Positions 125-44,144 of a stretch of DNA of 64,000 nt are shown piece by piece. The position numbers were made by a program, and so were the translations under genes. The notes beneath the pieces are model-generated. The model made no database searches. It was not told where the DNA came from and saw only the letters and a program-made list of their open reading frames with translations. Numbering within the stretch: position 1 is the first letter of the stretch; the number at the start of each line of letters is the position of its first letter. The stretch comes from Erysipelotrichales bacterium (GTDB taxonomy: Bacteria; Bacillota_I; Bacilli_A; RF39; UBA660): NCBI GenBank assembly GCA_022508565.1, contig JAFLUY010000005.1, forward strand, positions 1 to 64,000, given 5' to 3'.

Positions 125-889
125 ATGAAAAACGAAGAATTTATTGAGTTAAACAAAAAGGGTTGGAATGAATTAATAATGTCAAATAAACCGTTTGCAA
201 ATACAATTTTACCGGAATATGGGCCGTTTTTAAAAAGAAATGAAGATGAGATACAACTTATGCCTAATCTAAAAAATATGAAAGTATTAGATTTAGGTTG
301 TGGTGAAGGAGAATCTTTAGAATATTTATATAAAAAAGGCGCTTCAGAAATATGGGGAATTGACATATCAGAAGAACAAATAAAAAAAGCACAAAAAAGA
401 TTTCCATTATTTAAAGATAATTTTTATGTATCCCCTATGGAAAAAGAAATAGATATTCCAAATAATTATTTTGATTATATAATATCTATCTTTAGTATAG
501 GTTATACTTCTGATTTATTAAGTTCATTAAAAAATGCTTATAAATACCTAAAATCTGATGGATCAATTATAATTAGTTGGACTCATCCGTTCTATTATTG
601 TTTAGATATTGTTGATGAAAAAGTTATTATCCACAAATCTTATTTTAATGAAGATAGCGAAATAATAACTAAAGGTCCTGATAAAGTAAATTTAGCACAA
701 AAAAATTTAATGATTTCTACAATAATTAATACTGCTAAAGATGCAGGCTTTTATGTAGATACTATACTTGAAGAAGAAACAGTTTTAAAAGATGATGTAA
801 ATGGTTATAAAAGTGTCTTTTGGAAAAAAGAAAAAACTGTTAATTGTCCAAGCACATTAATAATAAAATTTAAAAAAATAATTAATTGA
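125..889 (+). CDS. class I SAM-dependent methyltransferase
   Basis: VLDLGCGEGESLEYL motif I; start shifted to ATG at 125 because GGAGAG SD lies just upstream (ORF track starts at 113). Confidence 0.85.
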   Translation: MKNEEFIELNKKGWNELIMSNKPFANTILPEYGPFLKRNEDEIQLMPNLKNMKVLDLGCGEGESLEYLYKKGASEIWGIDISEEQIKKAQKRFPLFKDNFYVSPMEKEIDIPNNYFDYIISIFSIGYTSDLLSSLKNAYKYLKSDGSIIISWTHPFYYCLDIVDEKVIIHKSYFNEDSEIITKGPDKVNLAQKNLMISTIINTAKDAGFYVDTILEEETVLKDDVNGYKSVFWKKEKTVNCPSTLIIKFKKIIN

Positions 890-925
890 TTTAGTTGTAA
901 ATATCTTCTTCAATCGCTCCATTGA

Positions 926-955
926 AATTAACTCAGTATCAACTGAGTTTTTTTG
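926..955 (+). terminator. Rho-independent terminator
   Basis: AACTCAGTATCAACTGAGTTTTTTT. Confidence 0.8.
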
Positions 956-1033
956 TGTCATTAATAATCTCTTCAAATAATATGTTATAATGAAAAAGAA
1001 AGAAAAGTCATAGATTTTTAAGAAGGTGTAATC

Positions 1034-1987
1034 ATGTGCAAGAAAGAAGATTTATATTGTTATGTAGAAAAAAACGGGAAAATGAATCTAGGCAAAGAAA
1101 ATAAAAAAAAAGACTTTAAAGAAAAATATAAATCTTTTTTATGTTACTTATGGGAGTCAATAAATGTAGATGGCCCACAAAAATATTGTAAAGATTCCGA
1201 TCAAGGACCATATGTTGATCCAGACAGCAAAGATGGAAAAAGGCGAATAAATCCTAATTTTTACACGGATTTATGTGCTTTTTTAAATTTTAAAGAAGGT
1301 AGTGAAAAATATACATATACAAAAGAAGATGAGTTTATCCATTCTGAAAACGGAGTTCAACTTGTTTCAGACCAATGTGGTTTTTCTGCTCCCGGGACAA
1401 AATTAAGTCATCCTTATGATGTGTACCTAATAAAGTGTAAAAAGGAAGGAAGAAAGAAGGACGAATCAATCGATAAAGTAGTCAATTGGGTAATGGAATC
1501 TCGAACAATTGGAGGTTCATTCCTTTGGACTAAAGAAATTTGGGCTATTTACAATATAGTAAGAGGTGGAAGTAGTAAATACGGGAATTACATAGAGGAT
1601 CGTGTTGATTTAACTTTATGTGAAATAAAACACTATTTAAATAAAGAAAACTTCGAAAACGATATATTATACAAAAAAATAAAAAATGAACTTACTAAAG
1701 AAGAAATATGGCTTAAAGATTTCAAAAGCTTTGATGAATATGTAGACTATTTTTGTTTTAATACATTCGTTGATAAAAATTATATGCCATATGATATTGT
1801 TAATAGCAATTTTGCTAATGGAGATAAAATACTCATAGATGAAAGTGAAGACAATTATAAGAAGCGAAAAAAAGTTTCTATTTTTGATTTAACTGCAGAC
1901 CAACTAGAAACAATGCTTAACAATGTTAATTTCATGATTAAAAAACGTTCTAAATTAATGATGAAAAAAATGGGAACAAAAAAATAA
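1034..1987 (+). CDS. hypothetical protein (possibly DUF6994-like)
   Basis: long ORF with SD AGAAGGTG upstream and terminator downstream; family name from memory only. Confidence 0.6.
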   Translation: MCKKEDLYCYVEKNGKMNLGKENKKKDFKEKYKSFLCYLWESINVDGPQKYCKDSDQGPYVDPDSKDGKRRINPNFYTDLCAFLNFKEGSEKYTYTKEDEFIHSENGVQLVSDQCGFSAPGTKLSHPYDVYLIKCKKEGRKKDESIDKVVNWVMESRTIGGSFLWTKEIWAIYNIVRGGSSKYGNYIEDRVDLTLCEIKHYLNKENFENDILYKKIKNELTKEEIWLKDFKSFDEYVDYFCFNTFVDKNYMPYDIVNSNFANGDKILIDESEDNYKKRKKVSIFDLTADQLETMLNNVNFMIKKRSKLMMKKMGTKK

Positions 1988-2016
1988 AACCTCGAAAGTT
2001 CGAGGTTTTTTATTAA
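1987..2016. terminator. shared bidirectional terminator between convergent genes
   Basis: AAAACCTCGAAAGTTCGAGGTTTTTTA. Confidence 0.8.
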
Positions 2017-3441
2017 TTACATTTTTGGTCCAGAACCAACATTTGGTTCTTCTGTTATAGCTTCATCTAACATTGCTTCTGCTTGATCTAATTCTTCCAT
2101 TAGTTCATCAACACTAAATTCAACATTACTTGGTTGTGCATGTTTAGCTTGAGAATATTTTTTTGAATGATATGCCATCTTATCTACATAATCTTTAGCA
2201 GCTTCAATTGCGCCTGCTTCAAGCATTTCATAAACAATAGCTGCAAATCCAGAAGCTGATGGCTTATGAGAATTTCTCGACCAATCTTTTAATTGGGAAC
2301 TTCCATTCCCTATCATAGCTGCTAAGATTTCAGGATGTGTAAAACTTGCTGCAAATGAATCTCCATCCTTTATTTGAGATAAATAATTTAATTTATCTGA
2401 TAATTCAGATGGATATGCATTTCTATTTCCATATTTTACTGCTGTTGCTTTAATATTTACAATCGCATCAGCTACTTCTCCTGATTTAAATACATCTAAA
2501 TCATCAGACCAAATCTCATGTTTAGCTAATGCTTCATTAACTAAATCAATAAAAGCCGAAAAGAAATGTCTATCTCCATTGTAAGCAATAATTGATTTAA
2601 CCAAATCATGATTATTTAATATTTCTTTCATTGGTCCAAACGATTTTATTCGCTCTTTCATCTCATAATAATCTTCACCTGAAGCTCCCAAATATTCATT
2701 AGGGTGTCTAGTACCATTTGTTAAAACTCTAACATTTTGAGAGTGTTCTAATGAAAACCCATTTCTTTGATTTTTTGTAACATATTCTCTTGTATAATGA
2801 GAAATGTTTGAAAGATATTCTTTAGCAGAGTCAATACTTCCTTGTCCTAACAATTCAGATATTAAAGTTGCAAATCCTTCTACAGGAATTTCTGAATTAG
2901 TGGTCCAGCTCGTTAAGTCAGTACGACCATTACCAGCAAATGCTTGTAATATTTGTGGATGAGTAAAACTTGCCGCAAATGAATTTGCATCTTTTATTTG
3001 TGATAAATAATTTAGTTTATCTGATACTTCTGAAGGATAAACATTACGATGACCGTAGACTCTTGCAGTTTCTTTCATGTTAACAATTGCATCTGCAACT
3101 TCTCCTGTTTTGAATACATCCAAATCATCTGCCCATATTTCATCCTTTGCTATGGCTTCATTAACTAATTCAATAAATGCTGCAAAGAAATGTCTATCTC
3201 CATTATAAGCAATAATCGATTTAACTAAATCATAGTCTTTTAATAATTCCTTCATCGAACCTAAAGAACTAATTCTATCTTTCATTTCATAATAGTTTTC
3301 ACCTGATGCACCTAAATGTTCGTTTGGTTTACTACTACCATTAGTAAGAATAGTTGGCTCAAATTCCTGTTTTCTATTTATACTATTACTTAAACTTTTA
3401 GTTTCTAGTTCTGAGTTATCTAAATATTGATTAATATCCAT
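2017..3441 (-). CDS. hypothetical protein with two tandem ~200-aa repeats
   Basis: internal duplication: LGASGENYYEMKDRI..LVKSIIAYNGDRHFFAAFIELVNEA and LGASGEDYYEMKERI..LVKSIIAYNGDRHFFSAFIDLVNEA, 208-aa offset. Confidence 0.8.
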   Translation of the reverse strand: MDINQYLDNSELETKSLSNSINRKQEFEPTILTNGSSKPNEHLGASGENYYEMKDRISSLGSMKELLKDYDLVKSIIAYNGDRHFFAAFIELVNEAIAKDEIWADDLDVFKTGEVADAIVNMKETARVYGHRNVYPSEVSDKLNYLSQIKDANSFAASFTHPQILQAFAGNGRTDLTSWTTNSEIPVEGFATLISELLGQGSIDSAKEYLSNISHYTREYVTKNQRNGFSLEHSQNVRVLTNGTRHPNEYLGASGEDYYEMKERIKSFGPMKEILNNHDLVKSIIAYNGDRHFFSAFIDLVNEALAKHEIWSDDLDVFKSGEVADAIVNIKATAVKYGNRNAYPSELSDKLNYLSQIKDGDSFAASFTHPEILAAMIGNGSSQLKDWSRNSHKPSASGFAAIVYEMLEAGAIEAAKDYVDKMAYHSKKYSQAKHAQPSNVEFSVDELMEELDQAEAMLDEAITEEPNVGSGPKM

Positions 3442-3584
3442 CGTCATCACCCTATTACTATTTTATCAAATTATTAATAAATTAGAATTTTTTAGGCCAC
3501 ACTTTACAAGCAACTTTACCATAGCTAATTTTTACAAAATTATTAATATATGATATATTATTAACCAAAAAAGAAGGGATAAAT

Positions 3585-6482: not shown

Positions 6483-7091
6483 TTATTTTATTACTCTTTT
6501 ATCCTCTAATAATGACTCTATCATAGGTTCATAAATATGAGAATTATTTGCAATACTTTCATTTACATCAATTTCATAATCTTTTACGATACAATGTGCT
6601 TCTTCATTATCAAAAAATTCTCTTACACATACTCCACCTAGCGCTTCCATAGTTTTCCACGAAGCCGGATTATCCTTATCAGCATCCATTAATACTTTAT
6701 CAATACCATAATCTTTACAAATCTTTAAACCTAAATAAAGATTGATCTTATTATATCCCTTGCCTCTTTCAGTTGGTCTTATACTATATCCAATGTTTCC
6801 TCCATACTTTCTCAACTTTTCATTTAACGCTAATCTTATATTTATCATACCAATAATTCTATTATCATTACTTCTAACAAGAAAATATGTTCTTGCTGGC
6901 ACTTTTTCTTCATTAGGTATCCTTTTGTAATCTTCCTCCAATTTTTGAAGCCATCCATCATAATCATCTAAAAATCTTTGTAGACCACCTGTTCCATTTA
7001 TATTAGAATCAAATTCATAAAATTCATGGACATATGATAAAGCAGCTTCTTTTCTTTCTATATTTGGAATCTCAAAATAAAATTTTTCCAT
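6483..7091 (-). CDS. GNAT family N-acetyltransferase
   Basis: IGYSIRPTERGKGYNKINLYLGL acetyl-CoA motif. Confidence 0.8.
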   Translation of the reverse strand: MEKFYFEIPNIERKEAALSYVHEFYEFDSNINGTGGLQRFLDDYDGWLQKLEEDYKRIPNEEKVPARTYFLVRSNDNRIIGMINIRLALNEKLRKYGGNIGYSIRPTERGKGYNKINLYLGLKICKDYGIDKVLMDADKDNPASWKTMEALGGVCVREFFDNEEAHCIVKDYEIDVNESIANNSHIYEPMIESLLEDKRVIK

Positions 7092-7275
7092 TATATCACC
7101 TTCTATAATTAAGAATTAATACAATTATACTAACTTTTATAAATAAGCATAAAAATAATATTTAGATTAATTATATCATGAAAAATGATAAATTATATAA
7201 AAACAAAATTAAAGATATTAAAATATACTTTAGTCTATACTTATGGTAAAATAATCTAAATGGAGAGGTGACATT

Positions 7276-7845
7276 ATGCTTAATAGAAAAACTATTGAAA
7301 ATGATGAAGAATATTTAAGACAAATATCTGATGAAGTTGATTTTCTAAATGATAATTACTTAGATCATATTGCTAAATTAAAGGAATATTGTGATAACAA
7401 TCAAGTATATGCATTATCTCCAATTCAAATTGGTATACCAAAAAGAATAATTTATATTAAAAATACAACAACAGATATGGATAATAATAAAAAAGGTCAT
7501 GATGAAGGCATCATATATATTAATCCCATTATAGTTAAAGAGGAAGGTAAAACTTCATTTTTAGAAGGTTGTGAAAGTTGCGTTCTAAAAAAAGATGATG
7601 TAACATTATATTATGTTGGTGAAGTAGAAAGACCTTATAAAATAGAAATTGAATATTATGATATAAATGGAAATAAAAATGAAAAATCAATCGAAGGATT
7701 TGAAGCAACAATATTTTGTCATGAATATGATCATTTAAATGGAATACTTCATATGGATAAGATAAAAGAAGTATTAGAAATGACACCTGATGAAATGAGA
7801 GAATATAGAAGTACCCATCCATATAATATAATTTCTAAAGATTAG
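7276..7845 (+). CDS. peptide deformylase family protein (divergent)
   Basis: ALSPIQIGIP, EGCESC and HEYDHLNG motifs in correct order. Confidence 0.8.
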   Translation: MLNRKTIENDEEYLRQISDEVDFLNDNYLDHIAKLKEYCDNNQVYALSPIQIGIPKRIIYIKNTTTDMDNNKKGHDEGIIYINPIIVKEEGKTSFLEGCESCVLKKDDVTLYYVGEVERPYKIEIEYYDINGNKNEKSIEGFEATIFCHEYDHLNGILHMDKIKEVLEMTPDEMREYRSTHPYNIISKD

Positions 7846-7855
7846 TTATTAAAAA

Positions 7856-7885
7856 TAAAACTGTACACACGTACAGTTTATTTTA
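7856..7885. terminator. bidirectional terminator-like hairpin
   Basis: AAACTGTACACACGTACAGTTTATTTT. Confidence 0.65.
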
Positions 7886-8465
7886 ATTCTGCTACTATTA
7901 GATCAGCTTCTCTTTTTAAACTTTCATCATATTTATTTACCAAAGTAAAATCATATGAATAATTAGAATAATTAGGAATAGTATAATCCCTTAATCTAAA
8001 TTCTTCTTCTATAGCTCTTGCTACTGGAATGTTTGATTTAATATGTCTTAGACAAAGATGTTCATATCTTTTCTCATTATTATCAGGTTCTACAAGTATT
8101 CGATAATTACAATAATTCCATATTTCTTGTAATTCAACTAACCTATAGAAATCCACAATAATATAATCATATATTTTTTCATTATCCTTTATCTCTTTTA
8201 ATAATACATTGATTAAATCTTCTTCTACCAAATCAGATATTATTTTCATTTGCTTAGGATACTGTAAAAATAAAACATGATCTAATTCACCATCTTTAAA
8301 TATATCTTCACCATACAACTTTTTTAATTCATCTAAGTTTTTCAATAACAAATTTATATAAAACTCATCTACAGATATTATTTTTATGTTTGGCAATCTC
8401 TCACTTAAATGTTTTGCTAAAGTACTTTTACCACCTGCACTTTTACCTGCTATCCCAATTATCAT
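7878..8465 (-). CDS. P-loop kinase (uridine-kinase/dNK-like)
   Basis: IGIAGKSAGGKSTLAKHL Walker A; IIVDFYRL. Confidence 0.7.
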   Translation of the reverse strand: MIIGIAGKSAGGKSTLAKHLSERLPNIKIISVDEFYINLLLKNLDELKKLYGEDIFKDGELDHVLFLQYPKQMKIISDLVEEDLINVLLKEIKDNEKIYDYIIVDFYRLVELQEIWNYCNYRILVEPDNNEKRYEHLCLRHIKSNIPVARAIEEEFRLRDYTIPNYSNYSYDFTLVNKYDESLKREADLIVAELK

Positions 8466-27519: not shown

Positions 27520-28422
27520 ATGAAAGAAGAATTAATGGCCATTATTGAAATTGGCAGCAACAACACAAAGACACATATTTATGACGATGATAAAGTAGTT
27601 TATGAACATCTTGCAACAATTGAGTTTAAGAAAAACTATAAATTAGAAGGTAAAATCTTAGAAAGTGACCTAGAAAGTCTTTATAAAGAAATAGAAACTG
27701 CTCTATCTTATACAAACAATGTAAATATTTATGGATGCAGTATATTTAGAAATATAACTAGTGAAGAACTAAATGAAATAAATAATACTTTAGAAGAAAA
27801 ATTTAATTTATCAATTACTGTTGTTTCACAAGAGGAAGAAGCAGAATATACAGCATTAGGTGCATATGGAAATATTGATTATGATGGAAATATCTGTGTG
27901 TTCATTGGTGGAGGTGGATCTACCGAATTAATAATTGTTAATAATAAAAAAATTATCGATAAAAAATATCTGGACTTTGGCGTAGTCGATATTACTAGTC
28001 ATTTTCCTGATTTAAAAGAAGATATTGCAACAGTGTCATTTGATGATGCATACTCATATGTTTATTCATTAATTGGTGAATTTAATCCACAATGCGATAT
28101 TATGATACTTTCTGGCGGCAATCATCCATACTGGTATCAAAATGCAGAGTTTGAACTTCTTGATAACACATTATATAAATGTGCAAATCAACCTTCAATG
28201 TTAACTATTGAAATGAGCGATAAGTATGATCGTGAAGCTTTGAAGATTTCACTTGATAAAGTTAGAAGCAATAGTGACAACCCACCTTGGTTTGATGGTT
28301 CAAGAGCAATGAAGATAATTACTAATGTTATATCACATAGAATAAATGCTAAATATATTATTCCAACGAATATAAACATGGAAGATGGAATAAGAAATAA
28401 ATTATTAAATAAAGAGGATTAA
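27520..28422 (+). CDS. Ppx/GppA-like protein paralogue 2
   Basis: AIIEIGSNNTKTHIYD; VSQEEEAEYTALGA; CVFIGGGGSTELIIV. Confidence 0.7.
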   Translation: MKEELMAIIEIGSNNTKTHIYDDDKVVYEHLATIEFKKNYKLEGKILESDLESLYKEIETALSYTNNVNIYGCSIFRNITSEELNEINNTLEEKFNLSITVVSQEEEAEYTALGAYGNIDYDGNICVFIGGGGSTELIIVNNKKIIDKKYLDFGVVDITSHFPDLKEDIATVSFDDAYSYVYSLIGEFNPQCDIMILSGGNHPYWYQNAEFELLDNTLYKCANQPSMLTIEMSDKYDREALKISLDKVRSNSDNPPWFDGSRAMKIITNVISHRINAKYIIPTNINMEDGIRNKLLNKED

Positions 28423-28861: not shown

Positions 28862-29737
28862 TCAACTTCTTCTCTTTATAACATCATCTTCATTTAAATG
28901 CCCAACTAGCAATGAAGAATTTGAATCATGTTCACTTCTATTTTTATTAACAAGTTGTTCATTATAATTTGCATAGCAATATTTACAAAAATGTTTGCAA
29001 GAATTATAAACACCGATATCTACCATTTCAACACAATTACAATTCCTTGCTTTCCATTTCGGGAATCTTTTGCCAGTTAATTTAAAAGCCAATTCTTTAG
29101 GCATACAGTCTCCTTGGATGAATCCATACTCAACCAAATTTCTATCTTCAAAACAAGTTTGAACAGTCATACCATGTTCTTTAGCACTTTCACTAAATGA
29201 CTTACCTATTTCTTCATAATCATAATCACTTAAATCTTTTATTTTTAATATAGACATATTGTTTCTAACGTTTTTATAATCATCAATAAAAGACACAATT
29301 ATATGTTTCACATAACCGTCTAATAGTTTTATCATTTTAGCAAATGCTTTTTTATGATATTCAATTGTATATTGTTCATTTATAAATATTGGATCATATC
29401 TAATATATAAATTGTCTATTCCTACTATATCAGATAATTTCTTTATTGCAGCAATTATAAGCTCCTTATTTGGAACATTAGGCTCGATATCATTTTTATA
29501 AGGAGTAAGAGTTACATGAAAAATAATTGGTTTATCAATTGTTTTTAAATCATCTATTATTGGTAATGGATTTTTTGTACAAAAAACAATCACATCTACA
29601 TCGGAAAAATTTATTCTACTTACGAGTTTCGGATTAAAAGGATTTCTTACATCAACAAATCCTTCATTATATCTTTTCATAAACCACGAAGAATAAAAAG
29701 CAACAACATCTGTTCTACCACTTACAAAAAGAATCAT
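28862..29737 (-). CDS. DUF1848 family protein with C-terminal Cys cluster
   Basis: ILFVSGRTDVVAFYSSWFMKRYNEGFVDVRNPFNPKLVSRI; CNCVEMVDIGVYNSCKHFCKYCYANYN. Confidence 0.85.
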   Translation of the reverse strand: MILFVSGRTDVVAFYSSWFMKRYNEGFVDVRNPFNPKLVSRINFSDVDVIVFCTKNPLPIIDDLKTIDKPIIFHVTLTPYKNDIEPNVPNKELIIAAIKKLSDIVGIDNLYIRYDPIFINEQYTIEYHKKAFAKMIKLLDGYVKHIIVSFIDDYKNVRNNMSILKIKDLSDYDYEEIGKSFSESAKEHGMTVQTCFEDRNLVEYGFIQGDCMPKELAFKLTGKRFPKWKARNCNCVEMVDIGVYNSCKHFCKYCYANYNEQLVNKNRSEHDSNSSLLVGHLNEDDVIKRRS

Positions 29738-39504: not shown

Positions 39505-40932
39505 TTATTTTTTTATCATTTCTAATCTTTTAATGACTTCTCCATTTTTCGCACCAGTTCCTAGCGATAAAACACTGGTGTTTGTTTCACTTTCTAGCCA
39601 TTCTATATATCTATCAATATTATCATAATTTACTAGATATTTATTTTTTATATCTTCATAATTTCCTTGTTTTTCAAATAACCCATAATCAAATTGTTGA
39701 AAAAAATTTAAATATAAACCATGTGGATTATTAATTCTAACATTGTTCTTTAGTTTATAAATATCTAAATCAAATATTCTTCTTTCTTTTTTTGTTACAC
39801 TAGTCATTTCACTTAAATCAGTAATAATATAATCTGGACTTTCAAATACCCTTCCGTTATTATTTATTCTTTTTATTACAATTGACTTATAAGCTCGTTC
39901 ACCCTTTATCTTATGGTATATTCTCTCTATTTCTAAAGCGAGAATTAAATTTATCTCATTTTTTTCTAATGTTTCTCTTTCCACTCCATTTAGTAATTGT
40001 ATTTTATAAATAACTGGTAACATATTATACATTTCAATAATTTCATTTATTGATTCATCTAAAATAGATTTAGCATGATATGCAAATTCATAATAAATTT
40101 CTCTAGGACAATTATTTCTAAAAGGATAGACGCCATTTTGTGAAGCTAAATTCACCTCACTCCATGTTAGTTCAGCTCCAGTACCATAACTGCCTGTAAA
40201 CATATATGCACCATCTTTTGTAACATTACTTATTCTAATTGGAAATGGTCTTATTACCATAATCGTTTGAAGCAATCTTTCTGGTGAAATTCCTGAATCA
40301 GCCAGTAATTGAGAAGTAGAAACGTTTCTACTTGTAACAAACGGATAATTACCACTATGATTTAAATCTAAATCACAACCCTGAGCACCTTCTAACATTA
40401 CATACTCGTCATTTTTATCAAGATGGCTATATAATCTTTCTAGCCATTCATCATTAGAGCAAGCTATAGCGTTTTTATAAGTTTTGAAAAACTCTAATTT
40501 TTTATCTCTAATAACTTTTTCTTGAGTTACTGCCCCACAGCCTTTAAATGTTGAGCCACTTTTAATATGTTCTCTTTCATATTTTTTATGTCGTTCTACA
40601 ATTAATGGAACCATTTCGTGAACATATATTTTTCTATCTCCCAAATATTTTTTTACCTGGGCATACTCTTCTATAAATACATCCATATCAATAGCTGAAC
40701 CTGGACCAATAAATAGTTCAATATTTGGGTTAACTGATGATACAGGAATATTTCTAAAGATAGTAGCATGACCTTTCTCATCAACAAAAGTATGGCCTGC
40801 ATTTGGCATACAATTAGTTACAGATGCTCTGATATTGATATTTGGGTCTGTTACTAATTCACCAATAACTTTTGCTTTTCCGCAAGAACCAGCTGCACCA
40901 TCAATTACACATATAACATTTCTGTTAACCAT
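39505..40932 (-). CDS. PurA/PurZ-like adenylosuccinate-synthetase homologue (divergent)
   Basis: VIDGAAGSCGKAKVIGEL; NAGHTF; VMLEGAQGCDLDLNHSGNYPFVTSRNVS; EMTSVTKKERRIF; SLGTGAKN. Confidence 0.8.
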   Translation of the reverse strand: MVNRNVICVIDGAAGSCGKAKVIGELVTDPNINIRASVTNCMPNAGHTFVDEKGHATIFRNIPVSSVNPNIELFIGPGSAIDMDVFIEEYAQVKKYLGDRKIYVHEMVPLIVERHKKYEREHIKSGSTFKGCGAVTQEKVIRDKKLEFFKTYKNAIACSNDEWLERLYSHLDKNDEYVMLEGAQGCDLDLNHSGNYPFVTSRNVSTSQLLADSGISPERLLQTIMVIRPFPIRISNVTKDGAYMFTGSYGTGAELTWSEVNLASQNGVYPFRNNCPREIYYEFAYHAKSILDESINEIIEMYNMLPVIYKIQLLNGVERETLEKNEINLILALEIERIYHKIKGERAYKSIVIKRINNNGRVFESPDYIITDLSEMTSVTKKERRIFDLDIYKLKNNVRINNPHGLYLNFFQQFDYGLFEKQGNYEDIKNKYLVNYDNIDRYIEWLESETNTSVLSLGTGAKNGEVIKRLEMIKK

Positions 40933-40953
40933 AAACCCACCAACTTTAAATTA

Positions 40954-41643
40954 TTATAATCTTGGCCCCTTATTTTTTCTTTTAAATTCTATATCTTTGC
41001 TCATGCATATAAATGGATCAATTGAATATCTCTTTAAAAGATCAACAACCCGATCAGACGTCATATTTCTTGAGTTTCCTTGCTCATCAACATTATCTTT
41101 TTGATTAATTAGTAATATTAGTTTATCAGGAAATTCAATTAAACCTTTAAATATTCTACCATCAACACTTTCTGGTTCAAAATGATTATTTATGTAATTA
41201 AAATTTAAATTTCCTTCAAGTACTGGATAGTATGTACAATCGATTAGACCTTTAACTACATTGTCCTTAACTGCATCTTCTAAAACATATTCTTCTCTAG
41301 CAAACCAAATTATTGGAATATCTTGATCATCTTCTATTTTTTGCTCTTGATCTAAGAAACTAACCTCCACAAATTTTTGTCCTTTTTCAGTTAAATACTT
41401 TATTGCGTCTTCTTTAGTAGCTGGTGAATCTTTCATTATCATTATTAAGACATCACTTTCTTCATTATAAATAACTGTATCAAATATACGGGAATGAATA
41501 ATATTTCTACCAATACTTAACATACTTACACAGTTATCATAAATTATACTTAATCCACTTTTAATTTGATCTAAAGCTGTATAAATTTCTGATCCATCTT
41601 CTTGAATAGACCATACATCTAAATTACTATTCATGTACGTCAC
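40954..41643 (-). CDS. hypothetical protein in PurA-like/glycosylase operon
   Basis: ORF overlapping the upstream UDG-like gene; no family recognised. Confidence 0.6.
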   Translation of the reverse strand: MTYMNSNLDVWSIQEDGSEIYTALDQIKSGLSIIYDNCVSMLSIGRNIIHSRIFDTVIYNEESDVLIMIMKDSPATKEDAIKYLTEKGQKFVEVSFLDQEQKIEDDQDIPIIWFAREEYVLEDAVKDNVVKGLIDCTYYPVLEGNLNFNYINNHFEPESVDGRIFKGLIEFPDKLILLINQKDNVDEQGNSRNMTSDRVVDLLKRYSIDPFICMSKDIEFKRKNKGPRL

Positions 41644-42322
41644 CTAATTCTCTCCAAATACTCCTATATCTTTCTAACTGTTTATCATTACTAATTTGTG
41701 CAGTTGGGTGATAAAGAGGAATGATAATATAATTATCTGCTTTTATTATATCATTTTTTTCCAATACCTTACTAAGTGTATCTTCAATTCTAAAATTAAA
41801 TACACTTGCTAAAGCTTTAAGAGGATAATAACCTAATGTCACTATTACTTTTGGTTTAACAATATCAATTTGTCTCACTAAATATTTTGAACAACAAAGT
41901 GTCGAATGATTTAAATTAATATTATTACCTCGATAATTAGATCCACTTCTTGCACACATTATTGCATTTGTAATATATATGTTATTTAAATCACATTCAT
42001 GGTTTTCTAAACTTGCAGATTCACATAAATATTTAAATAGTTTCTTTTTAGTTAAACTTTTTTCTGAATCTATTAAGTCTTGGAAATCTTCTCCATTTTT
42101 AAATCTTTCATAAAGTGATACCATATCTTGATATGGACCCCAGTCTTGACCGATTATAAACAACTCACTATCTAATCTGCCATACCAATCAGTCCAGATT
42201 GAAGGAATATTTTTCGCAATATCAGCATCATAAAAATTTATTAATGATTTATCTTTAAGATTTAAACACTTATTACATTTTGCTAACTCAGTTATTAATA
42301 TATCAAACTCATTATTTTTCAT
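41627..42322 (-). CDS. uracil-DNA glycosylase superfamily protein
   Basis: CNKCLNL; LFIIGQDWGPY; IYITNAIMC; KPKVIVTLG; IIPLYHPTAQ. Confidence 0.8.
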   Translation of the reverse strand: MKNNEFDILITELAKCNKCLNLKDKSLINFYDADIAKNIPSIWTDWYGRLDSELFIIGQDWGPYQDMVSLYERFKNGEDFQDLIDSEKSLTKKKLFKYLCESASLENHECDLNNIYITNAIMCARSGSNYRGNNINLNHSTLCCSKYLVRQIDIVKPKVIVTLGYYPLKALASVFNFRIEDTLSKVLEKNDIIKADNYIIIPLYHPTAQISNDKQLERYRSIWRELGDVHE

Positions 42323-43073
42323 CTAAGACACTTTCATCTAATTCTATAAATCCACCTCTACTCCATAACCAAAGTGGTGTATGAATATCAATAGGTTTAT
42401 AAGGAGTATTTTTAAATAAATCTTTCCATCTATCTATAACAACTTGTTGAACACTTGCTGATTCTAATTCTTTATCATTTATTAGTCCAAGTCTATGAGT
42501 GGCTTTTACTACATGTGTATCTGGAGCTACAGTTAATTCTTCTGCATTAATATATCTTGTATCAGTATATTGCATTATTACGTATAACCAATAATTAACT
42601 AACTTAGTTCCACTAATATATGGAAAATCTTTTTTGTGGTTAACAATAAAATCTCTAATCTTATTAACATTATAATTATTTTCTTCAAATAACTTTCTTA
42701 TATCACCATCAAAAAGATTAATAAATGTATTGCACAACTTAATCCATATTTCTGTTTGTTTATTCTTTTGTAATGCAACTTTATATTTAACTAAAGCTGT
42801 TTGTACTTCTTCAAAAGTAGATTCTATAACTTTATAAGGGTCAAAAACAAATCTAGTTTCTTCATCTTTAGCAGTTTTGTTTGCTCCTTCCCATAAGGTA
42901 TAAGAATTCCTTTGATAATTTAAAGACATTGGTAATGTAAAATATATATAGTTTTCTAAAGATGTTAGTTCATAATGAGGATTTTCATCTTCTGGCATTA
43001 CTTCCCCGCCTAGCATACCTTTTTTATACATTGCCATTAGTATCTCACATTTTTTTATTATGCCATTACTCAT
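42312..43073 (-). CDS. HhH-GPD-like (putative DNA glycosylase) protein
   Basis: FPYISGTKLVNYWLYVIMQY..LTVAPDTHVVKATHRLGL resembles the EndoIII-type LPGVGxKxA..DTHVxR core. Confidence 0.5.
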   Translation of the reverse strand: MSNGIIKKCEILMAMYKKGMLGGEVMPEDENPHYELTSLENYIYFTLPMSLNYQRNSYTLWEGANKTAKDEETRFVFDPYKVIESTFEEVQTALVKYKVALQKNKQTEIWIKLCNTFINLFDGDIRKLFEENNYNVNKIRDFIVNHKKDFPYISGTKLVNYWLYVIMQYTDTRYINAEELTVAPDTHVVKATHRLGLINDKELESASVQQVVIDRWKDLFKNTPYKPIDIHTPLWLWSRGGFIELDESVLDEK

Positions 43074-43478: not shown

Positions 43479-44144
43479 TTATCTTATTGTCTTAATAATC
43501 CATTTAATATCTTCAATTGATTTATCTATATTAAATATACCATTGCCAATTGGATAATAAACTGAATAAAAATCATATGAATTACCATTTATTTCTTTAA
43601 CAAATTTTTGTTTTCTAGTTTCAGATACACTTATCTTTTTTTCTAGTACAATTGAACTAACTTGATTCCCAAATAAAATTATTACTTTTGGTTTGATTAT
43701 TTCAAATTCGCATTCCAAAAATTTTTTATATTGTAAAAATACCGAATCAGGTAAAGGTCTTGCATCTATTTGAGTACATTTACCTAAGTTAGTTATAAAT
43801 ACTTTATGTTTTCTAACATTAGCATAAACAGACTCTGCAAATTCAACTGTCCAATCACTACCTTTAATTGATCGAACTTCCTCATAAATATCTTTATCTA
43901 AAAGACCTACTTTATAAAAAAGGGTCCAAATATTTTTTGTTCCGATCCATGGAGATTTAGGCCCAACCCATTCTTTACTTGATGCCACATTTCTTCCTGT
44001 TGGATTCATAAATACAAAACAAATATCAGGATTTTCACTGCAACCGCCATTGTATATGGAATCTAGTTCTTTTGCTCCATACTTTCTCTGTAATTTATCA
44101 TATTCAATTTTTAAATCCTCTAAAGTATTATAAGTTTTAATCAT
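43479..44144 (-). CDS. divergent uracil-DNA glycosylase superfamily protein
   Basis: ICFVFMNPTGRN; VFITNLGKC; KPKVIILFGNQ; VYYPIGNG. Confidence 0.65.
   Translation of the reverse strand: MIKTYNTLEDLKIEYDKLQRKYGAKELDSIYNGGCSENPDICFVFMNPTGRNVASSKEWVGPKSPWIGTKNIWTLFYKVGLLDKDIYEEVRSIKGSDWTVEFAESVYANVRKHKVFITNLGKCTQIDARPLPDSVFLQYKKFLECEFEIIKPKVIILFGNQVSSIVLEKKISVSETRKQKFVKEINGNSYDFYSVYYPIGNGIFNIDKSIEDIKWIIKTIR

Follow-up and report, generated by a model that had tools for sequence, protein, structure and literature searches.

A chromosomal operon around a PurZ-clade enzyme in a gut bacterium, with a possible role in purine-deoxynucleotide handling

Introduction

Why should a bacterial chromosome encode an enzyme of the adenylosuccinate synthetase fold in one operon with proteins that resemble base-excision enzymes? 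The question was raised by a preliminary description of the window, the 64,000-nt stretch of DNA analyzed here, in which a minus-strand operon was taken to suggest a pathway that makes, senses or removes a modified purine. The locus is read here as an operon of the bacterial chromosome that handles purine deoxynucleotides and has at its center a PurZ-type enzyme, common to a bacterial lineage and phages; the chance that this reading is right is put at a little below even. The gene order, PurZ-clade placement, active-site residues, selection, PurB absence, linkage, and a Qng1-like fold with its candidate residues were all computed.

Organization of the Operon

Four densely packed minus-strand open reading frames, running from 43073 to 39505, were all present and intact, as previously described (Table 1). 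The 11-nt overlap between the HhH and UDG1 genes and the 21-nt gap between the U229 and PurZ-like genes are exact. The third reported spacing, a 17-nt overlap between UDG1 and U229, holds only from an upstream GTG of U229 and is better given as 8 nt, because the U229 homologues begin at an ATG three codons later. The four genes may be translationally coupled. A second UDG-superfamily gene, UDG2, is located approximately 400 nt upstream of the operon, beyond the interval covered by the preliminary description, and probably belongs to a separate transcript. Genes for an ABC transporter, an FtsX-like permease and a two-component system lie downstream. An Rfam search of the operon region for structured RNA gave no match, and a promoter scan of the region gave no more matches than shuffled sequences.

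Table 1. Genes of the operon and the upstream UDG2 gene, with positions in the window
Feature	Position	Strand	Evidence or remark
HhH-GPD-fold protein, 253 aa	42312..43073	-	AlphaFold pLDDT 89.8; Foldseek
UDG1, UDG-superfamily protein, 231 aa	41627..42322	-	PF03167 2.1e-15; family-4 UDG 2.8e-13
U229, 229-aa protein, family not known	40954..41643	-	likely start ATG at 41634
PurZ-clade succino-amino-(deoxy)adenylate-synthase-like protein, 475 aa	39505..40932	-	PF00709; NCBIfam; PHROGs; trees
UDG2, second UDG-superfamily protein, 221 aa, motif FMNPTG	43479..44144	-	PF03167 2.3e-7

The PurZ-Like Enzyme

The last protein of the operon was assigned to the PurA/PurZ fold by Pfam (E 6e-30) and to the PurZ family by PHROGs. 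Its best NCBIfam model is PurZ NF038379 (E 1.6e-51), with the PurA models behind, and its score of 175 bits does not reach the trusted cut-off of 300 bits for that model. Among solved structures, a phage PurZ (7odx), which we take to be the S-2L enzyme, is nearest in sequence. When the window protein and 33 relatives (34 sequences) were aligned with phage PurZ, PurZ0 and PurA, the catalytic Asp13 of PurA was found to be replaced with Ser in 34 of 34 (S16 in the window protein), and the position of PurA R303 was occupied by Lys or Met in the 34 compared (K382 in the window protein). The compared sequences have Thr at the position of S-2L T273 in the aspartate loop (T377 in the window protein), and Arg at position 202 is found in the window protein and its 33 relatives. 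The donor-site Asp of PurA, at the purine position of the nucleotide donor, is changed to Gln or sometimes Glu, one truncated copy being without the last sites. The roles of S23, T273, Q308 and R303 are taken from PMC8342488.

In a maximum-likelihood tree comprising the bacterial relatives, phage PurZ, PurZ0, Pyrococcus (archaeal-type) PurA and bacterial PurA, the bacterial relatives were joined to PurZ with a UFBoot value of 100, and PurZ0 and both kinds of PurA all fell outside. There are two bacterial clades inside PurZ. The Bacilli clade contains an insertion of about 100 residues (about residues 265-372 of the window protein), and the Clostridia clade groups with IMG/VR contigs (L152-L156) in which the PurZ-clade gene lies within a replication module. 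The window enzyme is a member of the PurZ clade with the dGMP- and ATP-site residues of PurZ; the tree and the active-site residues support its original description as PurZ-like. It resembles the PurZ of phages phiVC8, S-2L and Bacillus phage vB_BpsS-140 in clade, dGMP-pocket residues, Ser in place of Asp13, and the VTK.xRR aspartate loop. In contrast to phage PurZ, the bacterial members are chromosomal, most of their hosts have no PurB, their partners are Ppx/GppA, NUDIX or HhH/UDG proteins, and the Bacilli members carry the insertion. With the bacterial PurZ clade, a closely related cellular counterpart of phage PurZ becomes available. The PurZ group of PMC12884076, for which 298 prokaryotic sequences were sampled, consists only of phage and four archaeal sequences and does not include this bacterial clade, of which earlier reports may exist beyond openly licensed papers.

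The gene might still have been the sole housekeeping PurA of its host, a case that the preliminary description had allowed for. It is indeed the only PF00709 gene in its genome, yet the PurZ-type catalytic residues of the protein, in a genome devoid of PurB, show that it is no housekeeping PurA. Fold, P-loop and overall chemistry are common to the window enzyme and PurA, but Asp13, the Gly of the aspartate loop, R303 and the donor-site Asp are all replaced, and the enzyme stands outside the PurA clade. That the protein is a housekeeping PurA in decay and converts IMP to adenylosuccinate, as a sole PF00709 gene might suggest, is barely conceivable in view of the change of Asp13 to Ser, the loss of the R303 equivalent, the tree position, and the lack of a PurB for AMP synthesis.

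Absence of PurB

No TIGR00928 match was found in the genome of the window, which is 95% complete, and PF00206, the PurB superfamily, was missing from all 20 genus and family genomes, including that of the window; 15 of these are at least 90% complete, and 16 carry a PF00709 gene. PF00206 was also missing from 30 of 35 further carriers of PurZ-clade genes (a few overlap with the first 20 genomes), and TIGR00928 was matched at E<1e-20 in five of 47 genomes, with 14 of 14 control genomes positive. Four genomes (G163, G168, G169 and G171) possess a canonical PurA in addition to the PurZ-clade gene, with PurB and PF00206 undetected; because they carry PurA without a detectable PurB, the absence of PurB is not wholly understood.

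As nearly no carrier has PurB or a member of its superfamily, the expected succino-2-amino-dAMP would be left without a known way to diaminopurine. This bears directly on the possibility that the bacterium or a resident element synthesizes diaminopurine (Z) and makes dZTP in the manner of Z-phages. Such synthesis would agree with the PurZ-clade placement and residues, and MutT-like NUDIX or HAM1 partners could provide dGMP as MazZ does. However, Z-phages depend on a cellular enzyme for the PurB step that nearly all carriers lack, and no DatZ, MazZ or DpoZ was recognized in the PurZ-clade gene neighborhoods viewed (flanks only). Z synthesis is improbable here. The DmtZ/DutZ and MazZ systems of Z-phages encode a PurZ-family enzyme together with nucleotide N-glycosidic or pyrophosphatase functions (PMC12884076, PMC8342488), as may also be the case here, but the proteins of the operon come from unrelated families.

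The HhH Protein

The HhH-GPD-like assignment of the first protein was upheld by its AlphaFold model and Foldseek but not by Pfam, which gave no support for an HhH fold. The best PDB matches in Foldseek were eleven chains of Qng1/DUF2419, the queuosine-5'-monophosphate N-glycosylase (E 5e-4, probability 1.00, TM up to 0.6 of the query), and DNA glycosylases ranked behind them. K157 and D185 do not vary among 11 homologues and may correspond to the K199/D231 pair that was mutated in Qng1 entries, the equivalence being drawn by eye. One homologue (L047 in genome G061, 6729-8417) is fused to a Q_salvage PF10343 (Qng1) domain. Set against this likeness, the window protein has no PF10343 match at the gathering threshold, its identity to Qng1 is 11-15%, and the profile comparison of the two gave no significant score. 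Judging from the model, the HhH protein is probably a Qng1-like (deoxy)nucleotide 5'-monophosphate N-glycosylase. Because it resembles Qng1 more than DNA glycosylases, the two base-excision enzymes of the preliminary description may be only one.

HhH homologues elsewhere are accompanied by a HAM1-family NTP pyrophosphatase, a DUF84 NTPase, an HD hydrolase or UDG2. UDG2 is linked to HhH in L016, L048 and L050, and in two genera a HAM1 gene is placed between them. Since most of these neighbors are nucleotide-pool enzymes, a free nucleotide is favored as the substrate, and the family may widen the nucleotide N-glycosylases past queuosine. Two further homologues (L043 and L093) are fused to methyltransferase domains. 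No close HhH homologue was found in phages or viral contigs; a protein of a haloarchaeal Halogranum virus is a distant fold match to the model (TM 0.71).

UDG1 and U229

The Pfam match of UDG1 (Table 1) substantiates its placement in the UDG superfamily. UDG1 shares with family-4 uracil-DNA glycosylases the fold and a four-cysteine pattern, composed of an N-terminal CxxC, C123 and C144, and these cysteines are probable 4Fe-4S ligands; the nearest solved structure is 4zbx. Motif A of family-4 enzymes is of the GEAPG type, whereas that of UDG1 is GQDWGP in all members seen, and the motifs are kept in the homologues. UDG1 also scores under the NCBIfam cut-offs. By these motifs it appears family-4-like, with a motif A of its own. 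The AlphaFold model of U229 (pLDDT 86.7) has an alpha/beta fold, and no structure in the PDB matched it at E<=0.001. U229 homologues are present in 13 of 385 genomes of the order, including that of the window, in varying contexts.

Proposed Function

From the family relationships we infer the substrates, the product, the joint pathway of the four proteins and its purpose. The PurZ-type reaction is presumably dGMP + L-aspartate + ATP -> N6-succino-2-amino-2'-deoxyadenylate (dSMP) + ADP + Pi, by which the enzyme would consume dGMP. With neither an adenylosuccinate lyase nor a relative in the genome, dSMP would not be carried on to the diaminopurine nucleotide (dZMP) by the known route; it could be an end product that serves as a dGMP sink or marker, or it could be the substrate of an unrelated enzyme. 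Like Qng1, the HhH protein would cleave the N-glycosidic bond of a free nucleotide monophosphate, and the UDG protein might take the corresponding base out of DNA, so that a modified purine would be either made or kept from the genome. The pathway probably ends in something so far undescribed. In the most specific form of the proposal, gut Bacilli and Clostridia run a lyase-free cellular PurZ-type pathway that has as a real end product an N6-succinyl-2-amino purine deoxynucleotide, or something formed from it by an unrelated enzyme, and this product is cleared from the pool and from DNA by the Qng1-like N-glycosylase and the UDG relative; this is possible, though doubtful. A selected chromosomal PurZ clade without the next enzyme would mean that common gut bacteria contain either a purine nucleotide not described before or an unrecognized lyase.

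Gene Neighborhoods

The proposal of a joint pathway has to be weighed against chance assembly, namely a PurZ-clade gene of unrelated nucleotide role beside generic HhH/UDG repair genes, in which case the operon would reflect shared expression and no pathway. The full four-gene operon occurs in this genome only, which rules out a conserved four-gene system, and a three-gene form occurs in the congener G008 (loci L016 and L125; HhH-U229-PurZ in L125). Most PurZ-clade loci have no glycosylase genes and contain a Ppx/GppA-like or NUDIX hydrolase instead, and UDG1 and U229 homologues mostly sit in unrelated contexts, all of which would suit chance assembly. On the other hand, homologues of HhH, UDG1 or UDG2 were found in the flanks of five of 61 Bacilli PurZ-clade loci, the window excluded (L088, L092, L093, L118 and L125), against approximately 0.1 expected under random placement, a value built on family-wide gene frequencies with a guessed frequency for UDG2. 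The five loci show several different arrangements; in L118 the PurZ-clade gene is immediately followed by UDG1, and in L088 by UDG2. In 146 family genomes, the co-occurrence of PurZ-clade and HhH genes is weak (four genomes, p 0.009), HhH and UDG1 occur together in three (p 0.006), and PurZ-clade and UDG1 genes coincide in one, no better than chance (p 0.43). Chance assembly is a somewhat unlikely account, and of the co-occurrence asked for in the preliminary description, the proximity of PurZ-clade and HhH/UDG genes stands, whereas the recurrence of the four-gene set does not.

The usual partners differ between the two clades. A Ppx/GppA-family gene is located beside or near the PurZ-clade gene in 32 of 61 Bacilli loci (14-24 nt upstream in 31), and a NUDIX gene in 14 of 19 Clostridia loci, counting L137 once, at a spacing of -8 to +14 nt. 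In the window, a Ppx/GppA-family gene and a DUF1848-like gene (27520-28422 and 28862-29737) lie approximately 10 kb from the operon, the former with 29% identity to the usual PurZ-clade partner and the latter with 67% identity to a PurZ-clade neighbor in L087; they may be left over from an earlier gene order.

Distribution and Selection

The genome collection contained 105 PurZ-clade relatives, and nearly all of the 80 listed belong to gut Bacilli or Clostridia bins. These bins are unlikely to be contaminated by phage, because carrier contigs, which reach 505 kb, also bear ordinary bacterial genes and six of nine genus genomes have the gene. The median dN/dS of 0.14 over 182 pairs indicates purifying selection. 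A viral scan with a single sequence returned no PurZ-like gene, and a scan with an alignment returned six.

An anti-phage defence, in which an infected cell would use the enzyme to deplete dGMP/dGTP or to form a toxic nucleotide and the glycosylases to attack modified phage DNA, would be in keeping with the patchy distribution, the kinship to phage enzymes, and the frame-disrupted copies in G008, G033 and G106, of which that of the congener G008 (L016, 9400-10776) is interrupted by stop codons after the VTKMERRIF motif. A distant haloarchaeal HhH relative on a Halalkalicoccus plasmid (L221, 5842-6672), one gene from a large DUF3883 protein, points the same way. Defence is nevertheless rather improbable, since the operon matches no known anti-phage system in PADLOC, the loci lie outside recognizable defence islands, and strong purifying selection with constant hydrolase partners looks metabolic.

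Two PurZ-clade genes per bin were observed in two assemblies (L140 with L143, and L106 with L137); the latter pair combines one Bacilli and one Clostridia type, and bin contamination is possible there. In another locus (L060 in G150, 144-3519), the PurZ-clade gene is flanked by three members of one uncharacterized family.
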